This document shows positions 45-64,000 of a stretch of 64,000 bases of DNA, piece after piece (position 1 is the stretch's first letter; each line of letters opens with the position of its first letter). The notes under the pieces were generated by a model. It did not search any database. It was given only the letters and a program-made list of their open reading frames with translations, and was not told the DNA's origin. The position numbers were made by a program, and so were the translations under genes. The DNA lies in NCBI RefSeq assembly GCF_030704535.1, contig NC_081810.1, positions 23,536,501-23,600,500 on the forward strand. Reading direction: 5' to 3'. This DNA is from Vitis vinifera. Taxonomy: Eukaryota; Streptophyta; Magnoliopsida; Vitales; Vitaceae.

Positions 45-3000
45 CACCGGAGCCAAAAATGACAACAAAGGCATAACATCTTCAAGCTCAATAGGCAGGC
101 TTGCATCTGAATCTGCAGGGACGAAAACATTCTTTACAACTGGTACAGGCCCTTGAACATCATACAACCCTATTTTGTGGCTAAATGTAGCAAGCCCAAA
201 CAGTGCTCCAGGCCCGAGAGCTGTAAGAATAAAAGAAAAAAGTTAAGTTTTCGAAATGGAAACTTTGTGCATGAAAGAAACTGAGAACCATCTTAATATA
301 TAAATAAACTACCTTCCAATGCTGCTAATAGAGAACTTTTAATGAGTTCCAAAAACTCTTCTGAAGCTGCAGATAAATTTAAGAAAAAGAAGGAAAATGC
401 CCACCTGTCAGTATTCATCTTGTGTCATGCAGGGAAAAAAATGCATTAATAAAAATATTATTATGAAATAAAGGACATGAGGGAAATATAACAATAGGCT
501 CAACAGAAATTTTGACATAGATAAAAGGAAGTTAATGTACCATATAATTTAAAAAAAAAAAAAGACACTATTGAACTACCAATTAAGGGGAAAAATTATT
601 AATTGGTTCAAATTACAGATAAATAAAGATATAAGTTGTGCACAACTTACTAGGGAAGTAGAGAGTGGAGGGGAATGGCAAAAAGAAGGTAGATTCTAGA
701 TATGAACATTGTTTTGAGCTCCCAATCCCATTGATGGAGACAAGTGCCAGCCGCCTTTAAAAGTTTATCAAAGGCGCAAAGGAGAGGGCTTCAAGGTCCA
801 AGCTTTAATTTGGCACTCTCTAGATGATAATGGGCTTAGTTGGGATCTTATATAAGTCAATATGGGTTCAGCCTAGAAAGCACTTTCAGAAATTAAGTTA
901 TGGGCCTAGTCAATGGTTATAAGTTACCATTTTCAGTCATTATTGTTGTCATTTTCCAATAGTCTTTAATGTGGTCAGTAGTCAGTCCAAGTTTGTCATT
1001 TTCAAGTTGCATTTACCGAGTCTAGTTCCAAGGAGTTATAAGTCCCTAGAAAAGTCTTATATAGTAATTCATTAGTCTTTTGGGAGGAATCAATGAATGA
1101 ATGAATTTTCAGCAGCCATTTTTTTCCTTTGTGTGATGCAAAGAGTACATAGGTGTGAAGCCTAAGGTTTCTAGGAGTGAAGGTCCTTTCAATTATACTC
1201 TCCTTGCATTTTATTTTCTGTACTGCATCACCCATACAATCCTATACCACATGTTTCAATCTAAAGTCCCATCCAAACTCTTCAACACCAATTAACAAGT
1301 TGAAGTTCTGGTTTATTTCCTTATATTAAACCAGGATAAATATACTCAACCCCGTCTACCAAAAGCCCTATGCCCATTATTTTTTTCAGCTACCATTATA
1401 AATTGATAAGTTTGAAAGAATACAGTTGTCATGGTTAATTTTCTGATAATATTCTAACATTTTTTAATTATCTCCTTCACTAAACTATATATTCTTTTAT
1501 AAAATATGAAATGGTGATCCAAACTTCCATAAGAGGGATTTCTCTTCTAATTTACTTGCATGGATACTAGAAAATTCAGAAGAAAAAACCACAATTTCTT
1601 ATCTAAGTTCTCCTTGCTTTCTATGTGTTTCTTTTCTCCTGGGTACTAACTTTTTTTATCAAAAACAAAATGTATTAGAAATGGGTAAAGCAAGTACATG
1701 AGAAGGATGAGGAATCTTCCCCAAATTTACAAAAACTGATCAAAAAATGAAAGATTAAACCTTCTCCAAAAAAAATTAAAAGACCTATACATCCATATAG
1801 AACCATATGAGAATATACAACATGAAACCTCTCATCCATCCATGAGGATTAACACAACTTCAAATAGAGATCAAAACAATTCTCCTCTCCTCCAAAAACT
1901 ACCCCTTACGACTTACACAATAAATGCCAATCAAGTTAAACTACATTGAGAGGAATGCCCTTAAATGTCGTGGAACAAGAGGCCCGGAAGGATGAATAGA
2001 AATGAATTAGATCCCATTGCGTCTTTGAAGTCCTTTGATGGTCCTCAAAAATCCTAGCTTCTCTTTTCCTCCACACAATCCATATCAGTGTGAGACAAGT
2101 GATTTTCCATAGGACTTTACCTCTAATGGAGCTCCTCAAACCTCCATATGAAATGGACAACATATCACATATACGTCTAGGAGGTACCCAATCCAAACTG
2201 GCTAATTTGAATAGCCTGTGCTAAACACTCAAAGTCAATGGACTATGTAGAAAAAGATGGTCTATTGTTTCTTCACTCCTCATGCACAAAATGCACCATC
2301 AAAGCAAAGGCCCCTTTTATACCATATGGATTTCTTACTGTCCAACTACACTAGAACTCCTAATCCTGGTTAGATAAATATACTATCTAATTTAATTCGA
2401 GAATTCAACATTACAGTTTAGACTTTCCATGAACATATACCTAATTTGGATATAGAATACAATATAAATTCTTCTAGACTAACTACTATAACCTATTAAC
2501 CAAATAATACAGAATAATTAAATTGGAGAGTGTTGACCTTTCTCTTTGATAGTAGTTTTTCAGTAGGGCCTTCCTAGCATTTTTTGACTTCCAAAAACTG
2601 TAGTTATTCCAAGAGGTTAATCACACCCTTTGGCATCATTGTGGTCCTTGTAAGCTTTTCTTGTGTAAAAGAATTATATCAACCCAACAATACATGTTGG
2701 GATGCAAAGGGGTTTAGGCTCAAGCCGTGTCCCTTCAAAACATAGGGACCAACACTCAGGATTGGTGAAAATTAAAACATAAATATGTGAGAAAGAAAAA
2801 TGGGAGTGTTGGGACCTGAGGTGTGATGTGACTACTGGAACTTTAAGGCTTCAACAATCATATCCCTATCTCCCATTTTGAAAAATGAAATGGGGACCTG
2901 CCAGGCAGCACCACCCTGACTCCAATGGGCTCAATCATGCAGCCTAGGCGGAATTTAAGGCCCAGTTCAGAAGCAAAATTGATTGAATGAGAAAAAGGAG

Positions 3001-5102
3001 AAAGATATCTCCTCAAAGAAAAATTTAACAAAGAAACAATCCAGAAGACAGGAACCAAACACTAAAACAACAACAACAAAACAAACAAACAAACAAATAA
3101 CCAAAAACAAAAGAAAAAGAAAAAACAAATACACCAAAGAAGAGGACAAAAATTGCCAGAGAAGTCTTAAAGCGTCAAAAATCCTGTCTTTACTGCAGTA
3201 TGTGCCAAATTGGCAAGTTTTCACACCCATGCAAAAGAGCATTGCAATATCAACAACTTTCTAAAAGACTGGTGTCTCCAAGAGCTTCCAGCTTCTGACT
3301 AACCCCCATATTAGAAATATCACCTTTGACAATGATGCCATGGAACACAAGATTAGACACTTCCCTGAGATTGAAACAGCTCTTAACTCCACCTTAATGG
3401 TGGCCCCATAATTTAATAGTTTAGACAATACAAAAAAAAAACAAATAAATAAATATACTATGGGTTCTTTAAATTCTAGGAACACCCATCTGATCTGAAT
3501 TGCTTATGAAGCATCCACGAAAACTGAGTTGGACAATGTCTTCTAGGTGACAATCACACTCTAAATATACCAAATGGAGGCAGTCATGTACATTTCCATG
3601 CCTAAGAACCCCATTTGACCTCTAAAGCCAAGAAGGAGTGAGTCCATGAAGCTGTCAAGATGGGAGTAACTTCACACTGAGAATTTTCTCATGTGACATG
3701 TTCATGAAACAAGTATCTTAAATTTCCTTCTAAACTAAACCATCTTTTTCGTGTTAACCCTGTACTGAATCACTACCAAGTCAGCAGCTTGAGTTTGGGA
3801 GGGGAAAACTCAAGTGGGGATATTAAACATATTAGCACAAATGACCTTGAAAAAGCATGCACAAGAAATCCCTTAATGACAGGAGCCTCAACTTGAGTTT
3901 TCGCACGTAGACAAACATACACCTTGTTGAAGTTTCTAAGATGGGGAGTTTCCATTTGACCATGATTGCTCTAGCTTATATATTATTTCCTGTCATCTTA
4001 TTTATTTCGCTTTAAGGACATTAATAATTGTTGAGGTGTGGTTACCTATCAAAAAAAAAAAGTAAGTGTTGAGGTGTGATCAGGTTTCCTAGAGACACAA
4101 GCTTCATGAGTGGTGGACAACAGTGGTTGTGGAGATTAATTCCTCATTGTCCTCTTTGGTTCAACTGATGGAGTGCAATAGAAGGGAAGTAACCATTATT
4201 ACGTTTAATTTCATATAATTAACAAATGTTCTTCATGTTGATCATGATGTAATTACCCAATACCCATTATCTAGCCCATGACTCCCAATTCCAATACAAA
4301 ACTAGGGTTTCTTAAGCAATCATATCTAATAAAAAGGCAATCACAGCCCCGAATGAATCATAATCTAAAATTTTATTAAAATCCTAAATCTCCAATTTGA
4401 TAAACTACATGGTTATATAATGGTAGACTTTAATGACCTTTCCCCTCATAGGACAGCTTTCCTAATTCCCTTTTTTTTCTTGCAAAAGTAAGAAAATTAT
4501 AGAAAGGATATTATTTACAAACTAAAAGAAATATAAATTTTTCTAATATAATAAGAAGAATAAAAGAAACAAATAGAAAATTATACAAAAAGCCAACCAC
4601 AAACTAAAATAGAAACTTAACAAACTCAAACCAAAACTTAGCAAATTAAAATAGAAAACAAACTATGGAAATCTTCTTTGAATATTCTCCATTTTCATAG
4701 AACTTCTATTCCCCTTCATTGCCATTCTATCTAGCATCACCACCTTCTTTGTCACTTGGATAAACAGTCTTAGCATCATCTCCAAGTTGTTTCAGGGTTG
4801 TCATGCGAATCAACCCAAAACTACTGATTGACATCACAGTCATCCAAGTCATTTCATGACTCAGCAAAATATTGAACTCAGTATTGGTATCATGATAAGC
4901 ATGGTCGAGGTGGACACAAATTGGCCTAATCATATCAATCTCGGCCAAGATTTTGAACCCTGTGCAAGGGAGTAATTTCTTCAAGTCCTTTGTTTGATTG
5001 TTTGGTTTTTTTTTTTTTTTTTTTAATATTGTCCCTTTAATTAATTTTTTCATAGTACCATAGTCTTCCTTTTCAGTGAAATGTTCTTCTTTGTTAAAAG
5101 AA

Positions 5103-5152
<50 letters not shown>

Positions 5153-7113
5153 AAAAAAAAAAAGGCAAACATTAAACAAGGCCAACTCTAGTACACAAGA
5201 AGCGTGAACACCACCATGAAGCAAAAATCAAATCAAATCAAATCAAAAATATAAATAAATAAACACTAAGGGCCAAACTACTAGGCCATAACAGCAGCCC
5301 CCAGAAATCCCCTAGTCTCTTTCCTTACAAATGCACCAAAACAAAGCCCAAGAAGCAAATTTCCATACCTTCCTTCTCCACCTCCCCTCAAATTACCTAT
5401 CCTTAACTAAAAATGACAGCACCCAAACAATATAAAAGAAGGAAAAGAACAATGCCCCACATTTTAGGCCATACAAGAATAAAGAAAAAAATGATTTGGT
5501 GTCTCCTTGCTCTTGCTTATCAAAAATTTATAGTCTCCTTGCTCTATCTACATAAGCAACACTAGTTCAAATGGGCAACCCCCTTATATAAGTTGAGCAA
5601 TGATGAGAATCATCTCTCAAACTGCTTCTCGAACAAAAATTCACACCTTAAGACACATAAGAACCCCCTAATGAACAATAATCTGAAAGGAGTGAACCCT
5701 TGAAGAAAGCTTCAAATAAATGAACTTTATTTACAAACAATCCTTACCAGGGCCATTCTATATTAAAAAATTCTTCCTTCTAAGGGACAAATTCAATAGC
5801 TATACATCAGGCCCAAGAAACTCTCTACAGCCCCAAGCTCCAAATCATGACAGCTTTTATGAACTTTGGGTTCCAAGTACCATTTCCAACATTTAAGCAA
5901 CAGAAATCAACAACCGAGGCTTCTCTATCCTCTGCTAAGGCAAAAAGACTGGAGAAACAATTCCTAAAAGCAGCCTCCACAAAGATTGAGGCAGAATTTT
6001 GCCCTATGCCACTCCCCACAATAATATGTGAGACCAACAAAAAGCTCTCATCCTTTCCTTATAGATCTGCAAATCCATCAAGCCATCGGATGTCACACTT
6101 CTCCATTTCCCCAAATTTTTTCTCCACTCCACAGCCTATCTCTATCCCCTGCAAACCTGCAATACCACTTGACCAGACAGGCTTTGTTAACCTATCTTTA
6201 TCCACCAGTTCTACCTGAAACTTTCATGACATCAGCAGACCTTTTTAATCCAAATTTGTCTGCCCTTGAAATTGGCATTTTAAGCAAAACTTTATTCTTG
6301 CATATATGAATATTGCTGGTTGCATTTGCGGGCACAAGCTAGAGAGTTCTCCATACTTTTATTAGAGGTAATTCAGAAAAGGGTAGCAATAAAATCTTAC
6401 AAGATAGATCAATGGCTGCAACATATACTGGGCGAGCCTGCATAGCTTCTCCCTCCGATCCTTCCACTACAAGAAAGAAGATAAAACCAATCTCAGATGG
6501 CATAAGAGACCAATGAAACACTGAAACCCAAAAAAAAAAAAAAAAAATCCATTTGCTTGCCGAGAAAGGTAGGAAAAGATAAGAAATCAAATTTCTGAAT
6601 TCTAAACTTCTGATTAACCGAGAAAACAAAATCCTCCACTCAATCAAGCTTCATATCCTTTAATTCCATTTCATAAACCATAAGAACATATAGCACAAGA
6701 TTCAATTTTTCTTTTATTTTCTTTGCTTTGCCTCAATACTCTCAGCAATCAAACAAACTCCTACACATTGACAAACGAAAATTACCAGGCAATTCGAGAT
6801 CTATGAATGACGACATCATCTCCGCACACGACTGAGGTTGAGAGTAGCGAGTAATGGCCTCAGATGTGAGGCCGTTGAGGGTTCCACAGAGAGAGCAATT
6901 CCAAGCCCACTGTTCGAGTTCACAGTAAGTATTGAAGTAAGCCCAGCAATTCTCGCATCGCGGTAGAAGATGGCCGTCCGATCCGTATACCGGAGAATTT
7001 CCGTTCTCATCCTTGGTGGCGAACGGCGTGACCGTGACACCCCACGGTAGTCCCGAGCCTTCTTGGGCATCGGGGTCCATTGGGAACCGTGACATCGTTG
7101 CCCTGACCGCCAT
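45..7113 (-). CDS. Sec23/Sec24-family protein transport protein, N-terminal part (partial, runs off left edge)
   Basis: Four exons are seen: 7113-6786, 6466-6401, 366-313 and 220 to about 45; phases join exactly and all introns visible are GT-AG. The ATG at 7113 opens MAVRATMSRFP. Residues 49-82 hold a Sec23/Sec24 zinc finger with CxxC pairs at C53/C56 and C73/C76. A trunk-type segment starts near residue 121 (RPVYVAAIDLS) and continues to ELEDVMPLLSFLAPV near residue 208, where the window ends. The fourth donor is ambiguous between positions 42 and 47. Family members are COPII coat or COPII-like subunits acting in ER-to-Golgi vesicle budding. The protein resembles, from memory, the divergent Arabidopsis member At2g27460 more than canonical SEC23 or SEC24. 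Roughly the first quarter of the protein is present. Intron 2 is unusually long (6400-367, 6.0 kb) and full of repeats. Confidence 0.9.
1650..2310 (-). mobile_element. LINE (non-LTR retrotransposon) 3' fragment with zf-RVT end
   Basis: Read on the minus strand, 2305-1936 translates (with one internal stop) to the C-terminal zinc-binding region found after plant LINE reverse transcriptases: a C-x2-C...ETIDHLFLH motif, then W-rich blocks such as LWKITCLTLIWIVWRK and GIPLNVV. The T run at 1650-1656 would be the poly(A) tail of a minus-strand insertion. The copy is 5'-truncated, as is usual for LINEs, and its boundaries are approximate because I did not find a target duplication. Confidence 0.7.
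4029..4078 (+). mobile_element. 26-bp LINE-tail micro-insertion with 12-bp target duplication
   Basis: The 12-mer TGTTGAGGTGTG occurs at 4029-4040 and again at 4067-4078. Between them sits a 26-bp insert (4041-4066) that reads GTTACCTATC then a run of A, then GTAAG. ACCTATC followed by poly(A) matches, in reverse complement, the end of the larger LINE-like repeat at 41970 (TTTTTGATAGGTAA). A retroposed LINE 3' tip is the simplest reading. Confidence 0.6.
5109..5146. repeat. (AT)n microsatellite
   Basis: About 19 uninterrupted AT units lie in the Sec23/24-like intron 2, followed by an A run near 5149-5163. This is a likely length-polymorphic site. Confidence 0.9.
5501..5544 (+). mobile_element. 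20-bp LINE-tail micro-insertion with 12-bp target duplication
   Basis: GTCTCCTTGCTC is found at 5501-5512 and at 5533-5544. The 20 bp between (5513-5532) contain TTATCAAAAA, the same tip-plus-A pattern as at 4047-4060. The target duplication is exact. Confidence 0.5.
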
Positions 7114-11173: not shown

Positions 11174-13875
11174 TCACTCCTCCTCTAAATCAACAAAATC
11201 ATCATCATCATCATCATTTCCATCACCACATTTGTAGCCTTCCCCATCTTCTTCATCTGCTGAATCAACCATGTCTCCATCTTCATCTTCATCTATTAGT
11301 GAATAAGAAGGCAAAGTTCTAGAACTTGAAGCTATCCCCCTTGTTGGTGGTATTATGCTTGAGCTTGCTCTAGCTCTAGCTCTAGTATTAAACCTGGCCT
11401 CCTCAGCTCCAGCAACTCCAGCAACATCACCCCATGTCAAATTGTCATCATCAAATACAAAATCATCTTGTGCACCTCCATGAGAATCCTCATCTTCCAT
11501 TCTCCCTATTAACCATTCATTGCTATCATCTATATCTTTCAAGGAAATTGGGTCAATGGTGTTACGTTCATTGTATCTTCTCTTCAAGGCTCGATTATAC
11601 TTGATGTACACCAAATCATTCAAGCGTTGATGATCTAACCTATTTCTCCTCTTGCTATGAATCTGCAAAAATTCATAAGCTCATAAATATATTTTAAAAT
11701 TTTAACTTTTAAGTTACATTCAAGACTCTATTAGACTATTACTTGTAATTATTTTGGATTTGGTCACTCACATTCTCAAAGATGCTCCAATTCCGTTCAC
11801 AACCTGATGCACTGCATGTTAAGTTGAGGACTTTCATTGCAAACTTTTGCAAATTTGGAGCTGAAGCTCCATATGCAACCCACCATTCAGCTGTAGTATA
11901 GATATTAACAATTTAGTGAAACAATTCACCTATTTTAGCAAAAATACAATCTAATCATTTAAATAACTAACCTGGTGCTCTAGTCTTTCTTGTCCTAACA
12001 ACTAACTCATTCCCGAATAGTCCTTGGGCATTTGTGAACAAACTCACTTTGGCCACAACTTTTTCTTGCTTAGCAGGGTCTCTTGTTAGCCTTAAGATGC
12101 ATTTATACAAATCACTCATAATCTCGGCATCATGCTCTATTTCTGGCTTATCATAGAAGAATTCCCGGTTCAAAAAGTACCCTGCTGCATGCAAAGGCCG
12201 ATGAAGCTGAATCTCCCACCTCTTATCAATGATGTTGAAGATTTCTTTGTACTTCTCTTCATTTCCATTAAAACTTCTCACAATTGCATCCTTAGCTCTA
12301 TTCATGGCCTCATAGATGTATCCCATAGGAGCTTTTTTTTCACCATCAACCAAACGAAACACACGAACTAGGGGACCCGAAACCTTTAAGCAAAACACAA
12401 TAGTGTTCCAAAATGAAGGCATTAGAACTATGTTGGCTATAGTTTTCCCCTTCTACTCTTTTGCCCATTTACTATCTGACCAATCTGAGCTTGTAAACAT
12501 CTTCCTCAAATTGTTTTTTTGTTCATGCAATCGCGATAATGTGATGAAAGCAGTTGCAAACCGAGTCTTAGCAGGCCTAAGCAATTCCCTTTGTCCAGTA
12601 AACCGCCTCATCATGTTGAGTAGCCCTGAGCGATTATAAATATACCCATTTAGTGATATAGCCCTCTCCAATGTCCTCTTGATGTTTAGTAGCTTTCCAA
12701 TATCTTCCAACATCAAGTCAAGGCAATGTGCAGCACATGGTGTCCAATACAAATGTGGACGCTTTAATTCTAACAACCTCCCTATATGAAATTGTAGATA
12801 ATAAATTTACATAAGTTCTCAAGATAGATAATTCAAATTTTAAAAGAAAATAAAAATTCAAGAAATAGTATTTATTACCTGCCATCACATAACTTGAGTG
12901 ATTATCTGTTATAACTTGAATAACATTCTCTTCACCAACTTGCTCTACCCATTTGTCAAGTAACTCAAACATCTTTTCTCTCGTCTTAATCATTGAAGAA
13001 GCATCAATGGATTGCATGAACATGGTTCCCTTTGAACAATTAACCAAAAAGTTCACCAAAGTTCTCTCTTTCCTATCGGTCCATCCATCCGACATAAGTG
13101 AACATCCATTTTTCCCCCATTCCACCATATGATCTTTCATCAAATCTTTTGTGAGAGCCAATTCTTTCTTAAGGTTAGTAACTCTTACCTCATGAAAAGT
13201 TGGTCCCTTCATACCCACACCATATTGGCCAATAGCCTCAATCATTGGTTGGAAACTCGGATATGTGACTGCATTAAATGGAATAGCGGCCTCATACATC
13301 CATCTTGTGATAAGCGTGCAAACTCTTTCTCTTGCTTCCTTTTTGTAGGCATCATTGATGGTAGTTTGATTCATCTTTCCACTCCTTTGATTTTGAACAA
13401 CCATCTCTGCATTAGGAGTGAAAAAATGATCCATAGGACCTTTTTGTCTTGGTTTTTTTGAAGAAAACGTCCTACCACCACTTCTTCCTCGGTTACTACC
13501 TCCACTAGAAATGTTGGTGATATTCGTTCTACTATTAATCTCCTCACCCATATCTTCATCTTCCAAACCAAACAAATCTTCATTAACATATTCGCTCCCC
13601 ATATTCATTTGCTCTTTTTGATTTTTCTTGGAAGTCATATACTCTTCCATTTCTTCTCTAACATGTTCCGGACATTTTCTACACTTTTTAGCATTTCTAT
13701 ATCCACCAACAAGATGTTGTTTGTGTCTATAGATGCCTCCTTTGGTTACTTTATCACAAAAAATGCATATGATGGTGTTCAAATCTTTTTCATTAACCAA
13801 ACGACCATATTTCCACCCCGGATCTCTTCTTCCACTTGCACTAGAGTCCACTTGAGTCTCACTCTCATTATCCAT
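11174..13875 (-). pseudogene. hAT transposase (BED finger, DUF659, dimerisation domain), broken by one stop
   Basis: Four exons, 13875-12879, 12781-11972, 11890-11772 and 11662-11174, join in phase with GT-AG introns to 805 codons. Residues 20-65 form a BED-type zinc finger (C37, C40, H51, H54). A DUF659-like block near 200-330 includes LMSDGWTDRKERTLVNF and VIQVITDNHSSYV. The next exon has PHLYWTPCAAHCLDLML. The third exon holds the hAT dimerisation motif LTCSASGCERNWSIFEN. The C terminus is acidic. Codon 443 (12452-12450) is TAG in otherwise continuous coding sequence (SKWAKE, stop, KGKTIANIV), so a full protein would need readthrough. No other stop or frameshift was seen, so decay is slight. 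Confidence 0.88.
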
Positions 13876-14338
13876 CTTGCAAACAAATTATCTATACTCC
13901 ACAATAAAATAATTATAATTAAATTAAGAAAAAAAATTGAAAAAAAAATGCATATCACATTATCAAATGTCACATTAACAACAAATATGCATGAGTGCTT
14001 TTTATTTATTTATTTTTATTTTGTTAAATTTTCATGTCAAAAACTCAAAATATAATATTTATATTTAAAAAAAAAAATTACCAATGAGAGTTATGAGGTA
14101 AGAATGGAAAAAAATGCAGAAAAGTGAAGAAAAAAGAAAAATACCGAGGTCCGGAAGGTACGTGACTATTTCCCCTTTATTTTTCTCCTATTTTCCCCCT
14201 ATTTTTCTTCTTCTTTTTCTTCTTCTTCTTCACTTCTCCAACACGGAAGAGGCTAGGGCAAAAAATGGCAGTGGTCTCGGGTTGAAAAAGAGCAGAAAAT
14301 GGGGCTGGATGGAAGGAGTTTTTATTTTTTAAAGAACA

Positions 14339-14744: not shown

Positions 14745-15357
14745 ATTAGGTCGTTAAGTTGATTTACAAAATAGCTTCTTAGCAAAGTTTATTATTTTGA
14801 TTTAAGTCATTTTAAGGTTAATTTGTAATATTAAGTTGTTTTATCGATATTTGTTTGAAATTTAAGCAAACATGAATTTTAAATAAAGCAAAGTGTGAAA
14901 AAAAAATCTACAAAATTAATTTTTATGTTTGTTCCTATTCTATATAATTATGATAAGAATATTAGAAAACTAATGATTTGAAAAAAAAAAAAGTAGTTTA
15001 ACATATTTTCAAATATCCTAAAACACTAGAATTTATTGCTATAATAAAAAGCTATATAAAGATTAATTGTGTAATTAGTTAAAAAATTGGTAATTAGATA
15101 GAAATTATAGTTTCTACTTATATATTATTGCTAAAAAAATGTTAGAAATTTTCTAAGTTAAGTTTTATTAATTACCTATCGGGTTTTTATGTAATTTATC
15201 TTTGAATTTCCAGATTTATGATTAGAATTTAATGTTCTATTGTTATTATTAACTCATTAATTTTAGATTTTCAAAATGGAAAAGAATATCAAATTCTAAC
15301 TTATTTTCTTTTCTATGTATTGGAATTGTTGATTTTAATAGACATTTAGATGAGTAT
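14745..15357. other. AT-rich spacer between two transposons
   Basis: No open frame, RNA gene or terminal repeat was recognised. It separates the hAT element from the chimeric element by 613 bp. Confidence 0.6.
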
Positions 15358-15362
15358 GAATT

Positions 15363-15660
15363 TGTGGACCCCGCATTTCGGCTCAATGCGTTTCCCACTC
15401 GATGGCGAGCTCGATTTTTATTTGAAAATTTGATTTTTATTGATTATTTGAAAATGACTTGAAGTCGCCACTTATTTTTGTTTTATTTTTAAAGGGTAAA
15501 CAAAATAAGAAAGAAAACCCTAAGTGTGACTCCTTATTTTGGAAAAGGTGATCTACGAAAACCGGATCGGGTTCGGAGGTCAGGTTACTTATCGGGAAGG
15601 TACGGTAAAGACCGTAGCACCCCTCTAAGTCCCTAAATCAGGTCTCTACTAATGAGGTGA
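15363..15660 (-). repeat. LTR/U5-like terminal segment of the chimeric element
   Basis: This segment contains TGTGGACCCCGCATTTCGG, a GTCGCCACTTATTTTT half matched downstream by TAAGTGTGACTCC, and a GGTACGGTAAAGACCGTAGCACC block. From memory this arrangement recurs in LTR-retrotransposon sequence of many dicots. Read on the minus strand it would be the 3' end of the element. Confidence 0.5.
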
Positions 15661-16290
15661 AGCTAACATGGCAATGGATGAATAAATCAATGAATACTCA
15701 GAGCAAAACATGCACATACGAGAGTCAAAAAATGCATATAGACTAATTAGAGTGGGAATGAGTGTGTACCTGTGCAGCGAGCCACTATGCGCTATCAAGA
15801 GGGAGGGTTAGTGCAAAATAAAGAGTATAAACATAACTCACATGTCACAAAATCGAGTACAAAATCATCAAAGGCACGCATGGCACTTCACTCAAAATTC
15901 ATTTTTATTTTAAAGAAAAATTATTTGATGTTGGGCCCCACCAAAGCCCGTTTTATTTTGCATGAATTAATCCCATAAATTCCATTATTCGGAATTACGG
16001 AATTAAATCCATGCTTATTTTAAAACATTTTAAAAAACAAAGAAAATTTGAAAACGGCTTGCCAGAAAGAAAAAGGCAGCCAAGTTTTATTAGAAAATAG
16101 GAGTTGGGATTATTTGAAAAGCTGAATTTGAGAGAATATTTACAAAATAGGATTTGGGGCAATTATCTTAAAAATTAAAAGAGGGGAATAGGAGATAGCA
16201 CATTCCTCAAAGGTAGCCATGCATTGACATACAAGTGAAAAGGTGATGAGGGAAAACCGAGTAAGAATGCAATCTGGAGTGCCACTACAT

Positions 16291-16617
16291 CTACTCTGTC
16301 AACAACTCATCTTCAAATGAATCACATGATCTTGCTATATGGGTTGGCCATCCATGTACTGCACCATCAACTGATCGAAATAATTCCCAAACATCCCTTG
16401 AACACTTCTCTACAGGCTGCATACATCTTCTAAAAGATATCCCTGTGGAGTCCTTCAAATCTTTATTACCCAAATGCTGAGGAGAGCAGAAAATCCTCAT
16501 TGAAGCAAAGCTAGCAATCCCCGCATTCTTTACAATCTGTGCATCCTCATCAAAAAGAGTCTCAAGCCTAAAGAGACATATTGATATCCCCAGCAATGAT
16601 GATGGAACTCTGACCAT
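16291..16617 (-). pseudogene. Unidentified captured coding piece (108 codons)
   Basis: An open frame on the minus strand inside the chimeric element, in the same orientation as the identified fragments. The peptide has protein-like composition (LFDEDAQIVKNAGIASFASM, then CSRDVWELFRSVDGAVHGW) rather than the low-complexity look of random frames. I do not recognise the family. It sits just downstream of the AsnRS fragment and ends with a stop at 16291. It may be another captured host exon or cDNA. Confidence 0.4.
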
Positions 16618-16707
16618 TTGACTGAAGCATCTCTTCAGCAGGACATGTGGTGCAGCAAGTACATTACCAAGATGCTTGAGATGACCCCTCCATCAGAAGT
16701 CAATTTC

Positions 16708-17436
16708 TTATACGTGTCCTTGCCTGCTGGCCAGAATCTGATCATGCTCAGATGCTAAATCAATCCCCCATTCCACTTTATTCTCAAATTTCTTATCTTT
16801 CTTGACTGCTTCCTCCAGAAGTTTGATTGCCTCTGCGTATGAAATTCGCTCAAAGGGCATTGATGCAACCATTCTTAGATGATCAATGGAGCCTTTATCA
16901 AAAATTTTAGCCATGAATTCCATATCATCAATGCAATTGTCAGGTAACCACTGGCAAAGAAATTTCACATAGGCCTTCGCACAATTCATATCATCCTTAA
17001 GATCTGCAAATGCTATTTCAGGCTCCACCATCCAGAATTCTGCCAAATGCCTTGATGTGTGAGAGTGTTCAGCTCGGAAAGTTGGCCCAAATGTATAAAC
17101 ACTGCCAATAGCACATGCATAAGTCTCAACTTGCAGTTGGCCAGAAACATTAAAAAATGCTTGACGGGCAAAGAAATCCTGGGAATAATCAATCTTCCCA
17201 TCTTTTTGAGGGATACCAGGCTTAAGCTTAGATCGCTCTTCCAGCCTTGAGAGATTCTCCTTAGCCTTGTTAAGTTCAGCCACAGATGCGGTGATTTCCC
17301 CCTTACTTGCTTTAGCAGATTTTAGTTGGGCAACAGCCTCTCCTTGCATCAAAAGTCCCACAGCTCTTAAAAGGCATTGAGAGCATAAAGCAGGCTGACC
17401 GAAACCCAGCTCGCGGCTACAAAGACGAGACCCCAT
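16708..17436 (-). pseudogene. Captured fragment of asparaginyl-tRNA synthetase
   Basis: A 242-codon open frame whose body matches the class II catalytic core of plant cytosolic asparaginyl-tRNA synthetase: LKSAKASKGEITASVAEL, LSRLEERSKLKPGIPQKDGK, QAFFNVSGQLQVETYAC, SVYTFGPTFRAEHSHTSRHL and AEFWMVEPEIAFADLKDDMN (motif 2 region), ending near VEWGIDLASEHD. The anticodon-binding N terminus and the motif 3 end are absent, so it cannot be a working synthetase. No intron interrupts about 200 codons, which suggests a spliced mRNA source, although I could not check the intron pattern of the parent gene. The start and last few residues are not from the synthetase. Confidence 0.85.
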
Positions 17437-17705
17437 GCACGAGGATTAGACATGCTCTAGCAAGGTATTTTACACCGAGATTTGCATATTACAGATGTTA
17501 CAACCAGCAACTTTGGAGTGAGAAACTTCTCCTCTGCCCAGGTTGCGGATCCCTTAAGCAAATGCTTCAAGTGGCACTGACGTGATTTATCTCTTGGGTC
17601 AAATCTATGCAGGTTTACAGATGACCTATGATTGCCATCTGGAGGGGTTTCATGATGGAAATAACCACGTAACTGCTGTGTGGAATAAGATAAGAGTCTT
17701 AGGAC

Positions 17706-18170
17706 CTAAGGATGCATTTGGATGGAAAGAAGAAACTCAGCCACAAAGCAGCCTGCAGACCACATATCACTGGCAGTTGTATATTCTGTAGCCCTAAAGA
17801 TCATTTCTGGAGCTCTATGATACCTTGAGCAAATATATGACTTGTTTGGTTCACCTGGCGCCACCTTCTTTGAGCTTCCAAAATCACATATATGCAGCTG
17901 ATGAGTGTGGAGATTGACCCATAAATTTTGAAGCTTGATATCACAATGACAGACCCCAATAGCACTGTGCATGCAGTTAAGTGCATGACAGATCTGGTAT
18001 GCATACAATTGCACTTATATAATGGGCACATGCTGGTCCTTCCTATTGTGATGTCTTGAAACTTGGTATGCAGTTTCAAAGACGCCTTCAAGAGCAAGAT
18101 TTAGGTACACTGCATCTCTTTCATTTCGATTTTCAGTCACATCCTCAACAATTGCTCGTCTGAACATCAA
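17706..18170 (-). pseudogene. Captured fragment of a GSK3/shaggy-like kinase
   Basis: Read on the minus strand, the frame gives AVYLNLALEGVFETAYQVSR, then, across one TAA stop, [60 protein letters not shown] and [19 protein letters not shown]. This is the central part of a plant shaggy-related kinase. The catalytic HRDIKPQN has become HCDIKLQN (catalytic Asp kept, Arg lost), DFG is intact, and the activation-loop Y-I-C-S-R-Y region is recognisable. The stop replaces the Tyr normally before V-K-L-Y. The ATP-binding lobe and C-terminal part are missing, so it is dead. Continuity suggests a cDNA source. Confidence 0.85.
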
Positions 18171-18423
18171 CATCACACGGAAGAACAATAGCAAACTCAG
18201 GCTGTGGCATATTGCTTCCATAATGTTTATTTCCATTGGCAATGTTTACTAGAATTCTAGTGGATTCTTAGACTTCAACTAGCTGTTGGAGTTCTTGGGC
18301 CTTTGGAATTACATGATCCTTCATGTATGCCCAATCAGGCATCTTCCACATGACGAATCCCACTCTGCAAATCTATAGTACCCTGTTGAGCTGGAGGTAC
18401 CAATGAGATTACTATAAAATGGC

Positions 18424-18873
18424 CTATTTAATTCCTTGGCAGATTCCATAGCAATCAGATTTAATCCCTGGGTCTTTGGCAAGTTCAGAAAAGTGGAAGA
18501 CAACATGATAGCAAATTTCCTCATCAGGCTCAACTCCTTCCAGATAGCCTTCCATAGCTTCATCAGGCACAGTGGGCTTGAACTTCAACAGCTTAGCATA
18601 TTCGTTTAAAAGATGAAACATGTAGGCATACACGTTGTCCATCTTCAAGTCCTCTTAGATAAAATCACTGGCTGCCTTTCCCATGGACTGCGCCTTCTGC
18701 TTATGGAGGTTGCCATAGTCAACAGCAAACTTAATTGACTTGCACTCGTCATCCTCCTTTATGGACATTACCGGAACTAAATGTTCCTTGTCTCCACCAG
18801 TGGCTGGAGTTTCTGGAGTGAAAGTGGAAGGTGCCTCAGCATGAGCATTAACATCTGTCTGCTCTGCTGTCAT
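18424..18873 (-). pseudogene. Captured fragment of a rumi/KDEL-type protein O-glucosyltransferase
   Basis: The minus-strand frame reads IKEDDECKSIKFAVDYGN, HKQKAQSMGKAASDFI, then a TAA stop (18656-18654), then EDLKMDNVYAYMFHLLNEYA and KLLKFKPTVPDEA. This matches the C-terminal portion of plant CAP10/DUF821 O-glucosyltransferases (IKFAVDWGN...KAQ.IGKAASDFIQE.LKMDYVYDYMFHLLNEYAKLL, from memory). The stop replaces a Gln by one base change. Both flanks (MTAEQTDVNAHAEAP before, EGYLEGVEPDEEICYHVVF after) are of unknown origin and may be further captured pieces. It cannot encode an active enzyme. Confidence 0.75.
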
Positions 18874-18929
18874 ATGCCCTCTGTTGCCAGTTCAGCAATA
18901 TCGAGGTCAGTCACTTTTGCATTTCATGC

Positions 18930-19466
18930 TTAGAAATGAAAGTGACGAATCCTCCGGACCCTCTGATTGCGGGGCAATGTGGTAGCAAAGCTTGGAGAGC
19001 CATTGATGAAGGGTCTCACGCATGTGTAGGTTGGAGAAGTGATGTGTTCCAAGGTGAGGTAAGGATCTGAGCCTGAAATATCATCATCAATAGCTAAAGT
19101 TCCTATATCCAAAAGTGAGATCTCCTTGGGATGATCAGGTGACAATCTTCTCTTCAAGCCATTAATCTAATCTCCCAATTCTTCATTTGGTCCAACGTCT
19201 CTGCCACCTCAGCATCAAAATCTGCCCAGCTCAATGTACCCGTCATCTGAGCATCTACCTTGCCCAGAATCTGCTCCATTGCCTCCAAGTCCCCACACGC
19301 AGCGGCCAAAATCAGTTATAACAATTGTTTTTGAAGGCCTCACAGAATTTACTCTTAGACCCAATGAGATATCAGCCTCCGCTTGCTTGGGTATCCAGAT
19401 GGCCGAAGCCCATCCGATACATTTCCTTGACCTTGCACTCCCGGCCAGAACTGGTCTTCTCAACAA
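18930..19466 (-). pseudogene. Unidentified coding-like pieces in the chimeric element
   Basis: Two minus-strand frames (19157-18930 and 19466-19215) plus a third frame reading MEQILGKVDAQMTGTLSWAD across 19283-19158 look protein-like, but I recognise no family. They lie upstream of the O-glucosyltransferase fragment in the same orientation. They may be other captured pieces or decayed element coding sequence. Confidence 0.3.
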
Positions 19467-19850
19467 GCAAAGCTATGGCTGCTGCTGGTACCAAACAGGT
19501 TTCAAACAAACTCACTCCCTCTGGACCTCACACAAGTAAGAGAGAGAGATGGGCTATGGAGTAGCTTCCCTGAATATGGCAATCACCCATTCTGAGCAAA
19601 ATATTCAAGCGATTCTATGAGCAAGGCCACGACATCTTCCCAGATTCACAAAATGTGCCCATACAAAAACCACTAGCAGTACTACTAGCCAAGACTCCTC
19701 TCCTTGGGCGTACGAGTGACCACCGAGAATAGAGGGTAAACAACCGCAAGGACCAAAACAGAGTATAAAATGAATCCCCAGAAAACAATGACCCGAGCCC
19801 GTCTTATATTGAAGCCATAGGGCTTATGCATAGGTGGGAAAAGAAACCAG

Positions 19851-19916
19851 ATGAAAACGAGATTTAAACCATATGGGAATGAAATGAAAACGAGATTTAA
19901 ACCATATGGGAATGAG
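19851..19916. repeat. Two tandem copies of a 33-bp unit
   Basis: ATGAAAACGAGATTTAAACC and the following bases recur with a 33-bp period at 19851 and 19884, nearly identical. The repeat lies in the non-coding right part of the chimeric element. Confidence 0.85.
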
Positions 19917-20712
19917 ATTAAAGGATCTCACTCAAACACACAAAAGATATCAAAAGAAGAATTCTCATTTTAAATCAAACCTCACATGAAGAACAGGGAG
20001 CGGATATGTCACAACACAGCCACAGCAACCCAAAAGAAACATTAATGGCAATCAAAATGAGGTCTAGCAAACGTACCTGAGAATGTTCCCTTTCTTTCCT
20101 CTGTTTAAGCTCTTCCTTATCTGGATAACTCTCTCCAGCAGCTATCAAAAACCTCCCTAAAAATATTTCTCTCCCGTTCCCCAAAAAACTCACCTCTCTC
20201 TAGCACCTCTCTCTCTGAAAATATCCCTAACGGCAGCACCCCGAACCACCTCTCCTATTCTCTCTCAATCTGCCTCTCACTAGTTGTCCTCCTCTAACTC
20301 AGACTTTTTCTCTCAAAACTCCCAGCATCCTCTCTCCAGCTTGCTTCATCCGGGATCCCCCTTTCTCTCTGTAACCAGCCTAAGCTTTACTTTCTCCCCC
20401 TTCAAAAATATCTCTAACCGTCCCCATTGCCAAAAATCACCTGCAGCTGCCTAAAATCCCCTCTCCACTACCATGCAGCTGGCAGCAAAAAAAAACATCC
20501 TCTCCTCATACGCTCCTCCCAGCTTGCACTAACGGCCAACAGATTTTCTCAGAATCACCTTTACAGGTGTCAATCCCTGATTGCTCCTCCAACTCCACTA
20601 TTGTGATTCTCTAGCAGCTAGTCAAAATGTGACACGTGGCTTCCCCCAGATGGTGACACCTGGCTAAAAGCAAGCTGCAGAAAATGAGCCCCAAATGGGG
20701 GTCTACAGAATT

Positions 20713-62116: not shown

Positions 62117-64000
62117 ATAATTTTTTTTAGAGCCATTTGTTTTTATTTTATTTTAATTTTAATTTTTAACTCTACCACTTTTTCTGATACAATTTTGTCC
62201 TGGTAAAAAAAAGTGATATTTCTTTTTATATTTTTAGAAATCCTTTTTTTTCCTTCTTTTGTTTACTGTTTAACCTTAACTTTATTCCCATAACCAAATC
62301 CAATTTCTCAACACAAAATGAAATTAAATGAAATTTTGAAAATTTTGGACAACCCTTCCCTTAATTTTGTGAATTTGGATGTGAAATAAGAAAGTCGTCA
62401 TTAAGAAAAAATTGAATATGATTGAAATAAGTTCTATTGTCATCAATTTTCTCTTAATTCTTGAGAAGTAATTAAATCTAAAATATTCTCATAAATTATC
62501 ACTCAAAAAAAAAAAAAAAAACATAAAAACTACTTAATTTACATAAAAACTAATTTAAAATAAATTCATTAAGTTCTAAACTAGAAATCAAAATTTTACT
62601 ATGTGCAACCTCTATTTTTTTTTGCCTCATACCTTATTCAATTTTCAATAAAATTAAATTCCATAATTTTTTTGTGGATTCCTTATTGAAAATGAAAATA
62701 GTAACAATAAAATAAAAATTTTGAATTAGAAATGAATTTACTACAAAATTTTAAAATTCGACATCTTATTATATAACAAAATCAAAATACACTGTCATTT
62801 TAAAACCCTAAATCTAAGTAATGGAATAATTCACAATACTGATGTTCACATCTACTAGACGTAAGGATTGAAAATAAGAAGTTATAATTTAATGTTCTTT
62901 CCTAAATTGAAAATCTAAAAATTTAATAAATTAATCTCAATAATTAAACATACATTTCAACCACAAATTCATAAATTCAAAGATAATTCACATAAAAATA
63001 GGTGATTAATTAGTAAAACTTGACTTAGAAAATTATTAACACTTTCTTTGGAACCATCCAATAATAGAAATCATAATTACCATCCAATTATCAAATTTAT
63101 AATTAATTATACAATTAATGATTATTAAATATTTATTATTGTAATAAATTATAATATTTTCATATATTTAAAAAAATGTTAAATTACTATTTTTTTTTTT
63201 AAATTATTAGTTTTCAAATATTTTAATCTTAATTATATAAAATAATAAGAAACATAATAATTAATTTTATAGGTATTATTAACATGTAACAAATAAAACA
63301 AAATTTGAATTTAACAAAAAATATTTAAGTGTGACAAACAAAAAGATTTTCTTTGAAGTATCAAAGAGAAGAGACATCAAATTAAGAAAGAAATCAAGAA
63401 GACGAAAGAGAAGGTTCATGTGTGAAGATCAATATTTATGACTTTAATTTATGTAAGATTGAGAGTGCATTAAGTTAGGGTTACATTTTATATTTTTTGT
63501 TAAAGCATCTTAATTCATTCAAGTGCCAAAATTGGTTTTATATTTTCATAAAATGGATGAAAAATATTTTAAAGAAAAACCTAAGCTTAAATTGGAAAAG
63601 GTTGGATTAACATAAACCCAACAAATGACTTAACACTTATAACATTTAGACATTAATACAAAACCAAATAATTTAAATACTTTAAGTCGACATTCAACTC
63701 CACTCATATTTAAATCAAAGATATTACCCAATTTTTATCTTGATGAAGTAACTTCTTTTGATATTTATTTGGAATTTATTTTGTGAAAACTACTATTCTA
63801 CCCTATTAATAACAATTCATATGTTTTTCATAATTTGATAACTTTTGAACATGCTTGTGAGCCTTTTTGACCATGGATTCACATTGTAGATGAATGATGC
63901 ATATTGGTTAGAATTTTCTCTAGATTAAAATCATTCATTTGATATTTTATGTAGATCAATTCTTATAGATGAATACAAGTTAGTCAACTTTGAATTTGTA
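62117..64000. other. AT-rich right end, no gene seen
   Basis: Long A/T runs and no frame, RNA or repeat end that I can support. Confidence 0.6.

Follow-up and report, generated by a model that had tools for sequence, protein, structure and literature searches.

Capture of host gene fragments by Pack-MULEs and Helitrons copies genomic DNA and usually keeps the introns. Pack-MULEs retain introns and have target-site duplications (TSDs) of 8-11 bp and long terminal inverted repeats (TIRs), while Helitrons insert between A and T, make no TSD and carry unspliced fragments. In the maize retrotransposon Bs1, the cargo is located between the two long terminal repeats (LTRs). Passages of PMC13317346 describe three host genes transduced by Bs1, and an LTR, that of BARE-2, altered by abnormal template switching between BARE-1 and Wis-2. 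Transduced sequences usually stand in the sense of gag-pol, according to a part of PMC7264820. According to passages of a maize survey, no LTR element there combines pieces of two or more standard genes (PMC2774510); in passages of a pepper study, NLR genes lie within LTR elements, which in some cases contain two or three of them (PMC5664825). That LTR elements can capture host sequence is already known, and what appears to be new at the locus described here is LTRs carrying many pieces of host mRNAs. This locus is a 5345-bp unit in a window of 64,000 nucleotides of Vitis vinifera (NC_081810.1, positions 23,536,501 to 23,600,500), the window being the whole stretch of DNA analysed. We identify this unit as a solo LTR from a large family of LTR retrotransposons, which is recognised here by its LTR features.

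By combining several fragments of host genes, the unit resembles Pack-MULEs and Helitrons. The 5-bp TSD, the imperfect 23-bp TIR and the absence of introns separate the unit from Pack-MULEs; an initial annotation of the window made from its sequence had already drawn this distinction from the apparent lack of introns and the single orientation of the pieces. That annotation also drew the comparison with Bs1, which holds for host gene pieces that are joined by transduction, spliced and in sense orientation; it fails in that the cargo of the unit lies within the LTR and not between LTRs and derives from eight genes or more, and in that sister copies carry other sets. LTR elements capturing spliced mRNA or gene fragments are the likeness to pepper and maize, as far as parts of PMC5664825 and PMC2774510 describe them. 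As in BARE-2, foreign sequence enters an LTR; the donor there is a retrotransposon, whereas here many host mRNAs contribute too. Few cases of exon shuffling by plant retrotransposons, Bs1 among them, have been described. Among the papers listed by searches of the literature on capture, no title or abstract start describes LTRs with several host mRNAs, which is no proof of absence in print.

Structure of the LTR family

The unit spans positions 15363-20707 exactly (TGTGGACCCC...GGGGTCTACA) and is flanked by GAATT on the left (15358-15362) and on the right (20708-20712), in agreement with the 5.3-kb GAATT-flanked element first annotated. Its two ends share an imperfect inverted repeat of 23 bp, which scores 24 within the terminal 60 nt, where shuffled sequences reached at most 19; no direct repeat was found between the ends. 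Judged by itself, the window copy could be either a solo LTR or a TIR element. No second copy was found within the window, and a search of the window for an empty site with the joined flanks gave matches that never cross the junction. Copies and sources of the cargo were searched for in the genome (495.6 Mb, 21 contigs). The left end has at least 41 scored matches at 93-100% identity and the right end at least 42, many of them partial. Two copies on contig C8 (L035 and L055) are direct repeats of 4161 and 4171 bp, 17.9 kb apart, with a CTTAG TSD at both outer sides. Compared over their full length as one LTR pair, they are 98.4% identical over 4172 aligned positions, and this is one full element with two LTRs that match from end to end. 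In all four inner LTR ends that were fetched (L055, L064, L065 and L066), the sense LTR end ..GGGGTCCACA is followed by AAATGGCGACTCC, which resembles a primer-binding site (PBS). Because the genome copies form a direct-repeat pair with a PBS-like sequence, the whole unit is one LTR. Since the window copy has its own GAATT pair, it is a solo LTR. The mobile element of the initial annotation is in its entirety this single LTR. The features found are a 5-bp TSD, TG..CA ends, a direct-repeat pair elsewhere and a PBS-like sequence after the 5' LTR. The sense strand of the LTR is the minus strand of the window, with the 5' end TGTAGACCCC at 20707 and the 3' end ..GGGGTCCACA at 15363.

Fifteen sister units with both ends located were compared; they were picked by matching the ends of the unit and are not a random sample. 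A perfect 5-bp TSD flanks 10 of them (9 by script, and L034 when one mutated start base is allowed), two more match at 4 of 5 positions, and three show no match (L020, L035 and L029). The flanks of L020 and L035 run into common internal sequence. Mismatched flank pairs, used as a control, gave no match in 210.

The sister LTRs are conserved at both ends, and their middle varies from copy to copy. The 5' cap (20403-20707) is about 0.9 identical over its first 150 nt and fades by about 305 nt. The 3' cap (15363-16187) is strongest over the last 300 nt (15363-15662), where identity to the window copy is mostly 0.9-1.0, and can be aligned over roughly the last 820 nt. With positions counted on the unit's minus strand (em, equal to 20708 minus the window position), 14 of the 16 copies that have lost the neighbouring cargo show BLAST blocks of the 3' cap starting at em 4598-4613, and the 5' borders are scattered. 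L020 is an LTR that runs into the same internal sequence as L035; it holds 3434 bp of the unit at 98.6% identity (em 1912-5345, from GT90 through the 3' end). The C8 element has an NFRKB-type host piece in its LTR. As cargo is present in the LTR of L020 and in both LTRs of the C8 element, it belongs to the LTR itself.

Repeats in the 3' internal region are a feature of the Ogre/Tat lineage (Ty3/gypsy). The family resembles this lineage in its large element, its 5-bp TSD and its repeats in the 3' internal region; for Ogre LTRs, arrays of host exons have not been reported to our knowledge. The PBS-like sequence TGGCGACTCC, downstream of the sense LTR end, may fit tRNA-Arg. This tRNA is listed among the primers of non-chromoviruses in a part of PMC6317226.

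Host gene pieces and their introns

Sequence comparison confirms, between the conserved caps, pieces assigned to at least eight host genes, all in the sense of the LTR. From the 5' side, the first is an N-terminal piece of S-adenosylhomocysteine hydrolase (SAHH; 19345-19476; PDB 3ond, E 9.2e-5), with a score of 91 against a shuffle maximum of 49. It is followed by 113 bp of an ankyrin-repeat protein (19198-19310), 94% identical to C8:14940636 (L061), where the source open reading frame (ORF) matches Ank_2 at 8.1e-15. A C-terminal piece of a GT90 O-glucosyltransferase (18559-18764) has Pfam matches at 5.1e-12 and 5.5e-08. The next 50 bp (18516-18565) are 100% identical to C2:4780596, in an elongation factor G (EF-G) ORF with a GTP_EFTU match at 1.7e-13. 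At 18215-18350 lies a TRRAP/Tra1 FAT-domain piece whose source, C4:21366680-21366989 (L075), matches FAT at 1e-18; TRRAP is the name that we take this gene to have. The window piece itself found no support in Pfam or PDB, the FAT domain coming from the source locus only. The names of the ankyrin, EF-G and TRRAP pieces were all taken from their source loci. The GSK3-type kinase piece (17727-18123; Pfam 1.5e-26) aligns with PDB 8qcw over 132 residues without gaps and has its source at C15:19172693-19173503. An asparaginyl-tRNA synthetase (AsnRS) piece (16742-17345; Pfam 2.2e-17) includes the catalytic core and part of WHEP, the latter below the Pfam cut-off. The last is a ribokinase piece (16516-16748), with direct evidence at 16516-16630 (PDB 6ilr, E 1.9e-5, with a frame-joined query), and each of its halves alone beats every shuffle on the minus strand. 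For SAHH and ribokinase there was no Pfam or NCBIfam match, and the support comes from PDB and shuffles. The reference segments of AsnRS, GSK3, GT90, SAHH and ribokinase scored above all shuffles window-wide and at the expected place (40 or 100 shuffles per segment).

Further modules on the same strand lie between these pieces. One at 18925-19206 is common to C18 and C13 loci, one at 18342-18524 is 96% identical to C7:11409374, and a short one at 18118-18198 is 84% identical to C1:13798243; none of the three has a name. A piece at 18752-18899 with several copies on C15, 95% identical to C15:5442397, and a piece of another C15 gene at 17477-17621, with its source at 20.47 Mb, gave no Pfam match; we assume them to be CID/RPRD-like and WD40-like, respectively. 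By default, the cargo would be regarded as neutral passenger sequence.

The O-glucosyltransferase, GSK3-like kinase and AsnRS pieces of the initial annotation all have Pfam matches on the minus strand. Its reading of several unrelated genes was right, and its minimum of three was too low. Among its unknown pieces, SAHH, ribokinase, ankyrin, EF-G and TRRAP/FAT are now named and others remain without a name. The same-sense arrangement extends to all eight database-supported pieces.

Sources were located on six contigs: C11 (AsnRS), C15 (GSK3, WD40-like and CID-like), C16 (GT90), C4 (TRRAP), C2 (EF-G) and C8 (ankyrin). They are not neighbours, and even the three on C15 are far apart (CID-like at 5.44 Mb, GSK3 at 19.17 Mb and WD40-like at 20.47 Mb). 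Identities between piece and source range from about 75% to 100%, and some sources may be paralogues.

Introns were compared for AsnRS, GSK3, GT90, the WD40-like C15 gene and TRRAP; junctions were set at the best-scoring GT-AG pair. The unit lacks six GT-AG introns, which belong to four gene loci. A 473-bp intron of the C11 AsnRS source is missing at 16996/16995, where five other genome copies are also continuous, and three introns of the GSK3 source (151, 184 and 79 bp) are missing at 17994/17993, 17919/17918 and 17862/17861. The 96-bp intron of the GT90 source is absent between 18694 and 18693, and the 72-bp intron of the WD40-like gene at 17567/17566. In Arabidopsis and rice, GSK genes mostly have 12 exons, with the catalytic domain in exons 3-10 (passages of PMC1524769), which agrees with the GSK3 result. 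A longer AsnRS piece in the sister LTR L022 lacks two introns by its BLAST blocks. The TRRAP piece lacks, between 18295 and 18294, an in-frame 174-nt coding segment of its source with a GT start and a TTTTGCAG end; this gap may reflect exitron splicing in the ancestral transcript, with a deletion as the alternative.

The initial annotation had called for a search for adjacent parents in the same order and for retained introns. The located parents are scattered, those of ribokinase and SAHH were not found, and the introns are gone in all four loci where a piece spans them. Given scattered sources and absent introns, the capture of spliced mRNA by a retroelement, as then proposed, is well supported, with the correction that the carrier is a solo LTR and the cargo lies inside it. 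Segmental duplication is rejected by the scattered sources, and a Helitron by the 5-bp TSD and the spliced pieces.

Module junctions, sister cargo and the origin of the LTR body

Ten module borders were examined, and seven abut. Three of these seven junctions have an exact shared run across the switch point: CATAAGGGAGGA (12 nt), ATGAGGAAA (9 nt) and AGCATGA (7 nt). In random junctions of the same sequences the mean shared run is 0.7, with runs of at least 9 in 0.00012 and at least 7 in 0.00065 of trials; the 12-nt run occurred in 12 of 500,000 trials, by our estimate about what the true site itself contributes. A 3-nt run is ordinary by this control (0.06). Such microhomology favours template switching at short homologies, without being proof of it.

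The genome-wide search of the ends, also suggested initially, gave sister LTRs with other cargo sets. Modules common to the unit and its sisters occur as subsets in differing combinations, and several of them travel together. Recognisable host genes are present in 10 of the 15 sister LTRs: the scan of 30 single sense ORFs, which covered all 15 units, gave 8 ORFs with matches, in 8 units (one, in L032, below the Pfam cut-off), to which L020 and L022 are added by their AsnRS sequence. The interiors of the 15 units contain 58 sense and 22 antisense ORFs with a length of 100 residues or more. The 58 longest ORFs per strand gave 19 Pfam families in sense against one in antisense, and four of the 19 are AsnRS or GSK3 cargo (tRNA-synt_2, WHEP-TRS, Pkinase and PK_Tyr_Ser-Thr). 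As the sense ORFs are longer, part of this gap may be a length effect. Since sister copies carry other sets, it seems likely that the LTRs of this family pick up host messages repeatedly.

We consider it very probable that the body of the LTR was built by repeated template switching onto spliced host mRNAs and that the solo copy arose by LTR recombination. Reverse transcriptase would switch from the element RNA to a packaged, spliced host mRNA, then return to the element RNA, or to that of another family member, at short common sequences. Because one template makes both LTRs of a new copy, the cargo would be doubled into both and spread with the family. A later recombination between the two LTRs would have left the solo copy; we infer this event, as we do the point in reverse transcription at which switching takes place. 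If transcription starts near the border of the 3' cap, the cargo would be part of U3 and the pattern would be explained by misdirected first-strand transfer; a start near the 5' cap would place it in R.

Several observations weigh against this reading. Parents of ribokinase and SAHH were not found in the genome, the best ribokinase-like locus being 82% identical over 65 bp. The GSK3 source is only 82-92% identical and therefore may be a paralogue, and the 72-bp intron is the weakest case, its blocks matching at 83% and 75%. Of the seven junctions that abut, four are weak (two with about 3 exact nt, two imperfect over about 9), three of the ten borders do not abut, and an unnamed locus (L076) or another LTR (L054) serves as one of the two sources at the 9- and 7-nt junctions. 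L029 has a PBS-like sequence after the opposite LTR end, and the 3' cap border is soft, weaker similarity extending back to about em 4521. Among the sister units, one host-like ORF is antisense (SEO_C), and L026, L027, L029, L031 and L036 had no Pfam match in the singly scanned ORFs.

Host mRNAs could also have been retroposed singly into a resident LTR by a long interspersed nuclear element (LINE), the LTR then spreading. Intron-free pieces are expected in this case too, and passages of PMC5664825 describe a LINE-driven retrocopy of a resistance gene in pepper. However, the pieces are short internal exon groups joined together, some at shared microhomology, and all named pieces are in the LTR sense, whereas both orientations and poly(A) tails would be expected (tails were not searched for). 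We regard this origin as improbable. Single capture of one fused host transcript, produced by read-through or trans-splicing, would account for the common sense of all named pieces and for the modules that travel together. It appears still less probable in view of the sources on six contigs, the other combinations held by sister LTRs and the wide range of piece-to-source identities, though some sources may be paralogues. A Pack-type DNA transposon that captured genomic gene fragments would fit the 23-bp imperfect TIR and the lack of direct repeats at the ends of the window copy, and passages of PMC2528002 report gene fragments in every superfamily of class II elements in grapevine; with introns absent, copies forming an LTR pair with a PBS, and a TSD of 5 bp against 8 for hAT, 3 for CACTA, 9 for MULE and 3 for PIF (same passages), it is rejected as the least probable of the three.

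Beyond the template-switching origin itself, we tentatively suggest a broader view: the family may possess a cargo-loading LTR, with a dispensable body that is continually replaced as strand transfer routinely lands on spliced host mRNAs, and would act as a permanent engine of exon shuffling, fusing unrelated host exons in sense inside its own LTRs. Examples would be two single open frames, one joining LANC and kinesin domains (L028:1669-2166) and one joining aminotransferase and beta-amylase domains (L033:2927-3388). A family with many different spliced mRNA pieces in its LTRs would offer many natural capture events to compare, and the mechanism would become directly testable with respect to the strand-transfer step, the homology used and the choice of mRNAs. 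Sense host exons would be placed beside LTR regulatory sequence at many sites.

Other forms of the family and surroundings of the unit

Two cargo-bearing LTR units, L020 and L021 (C6:8370376-8400882), are inverted with respect to each other, and their outer ends are 30.5 kb apart. AGGGG stands on both outer flanks, the L021 match ends 28 bp before its inner end, and the arrangement is palindromic. At L060 (C19:6199419-6200117), two LTR 3' ends face each other with about 15 bp of PBS-like sequence between them. Inverted LTR forms may recur in the family (L060 and L029). In the internal region that adjoins the sense 3' LTR of the C8 element (L035:4980-7823), there are ORFs made of degenerate tandem repeats.

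Scans for Rfam families and tRNAs gave no hits in the window, and searches for the end motifs of the unit in viral and GTDB collections found nothing; among the papers listed by text searches for its end sequences, one of them on Leishmania, none was relevant. A scan of the viral collection detected AsnRS-like sequence of at most 50% identity on three viral contigs. ORFs that we judged by eye to be hAT-like transposases lie on the minus strand at 11174-13887, some 1.5 kb away from the LTR. A repeat in the left flank of the unit (14900-15305) has an inverted copy, 76% identical, at 62876-63280 near the end of the window.

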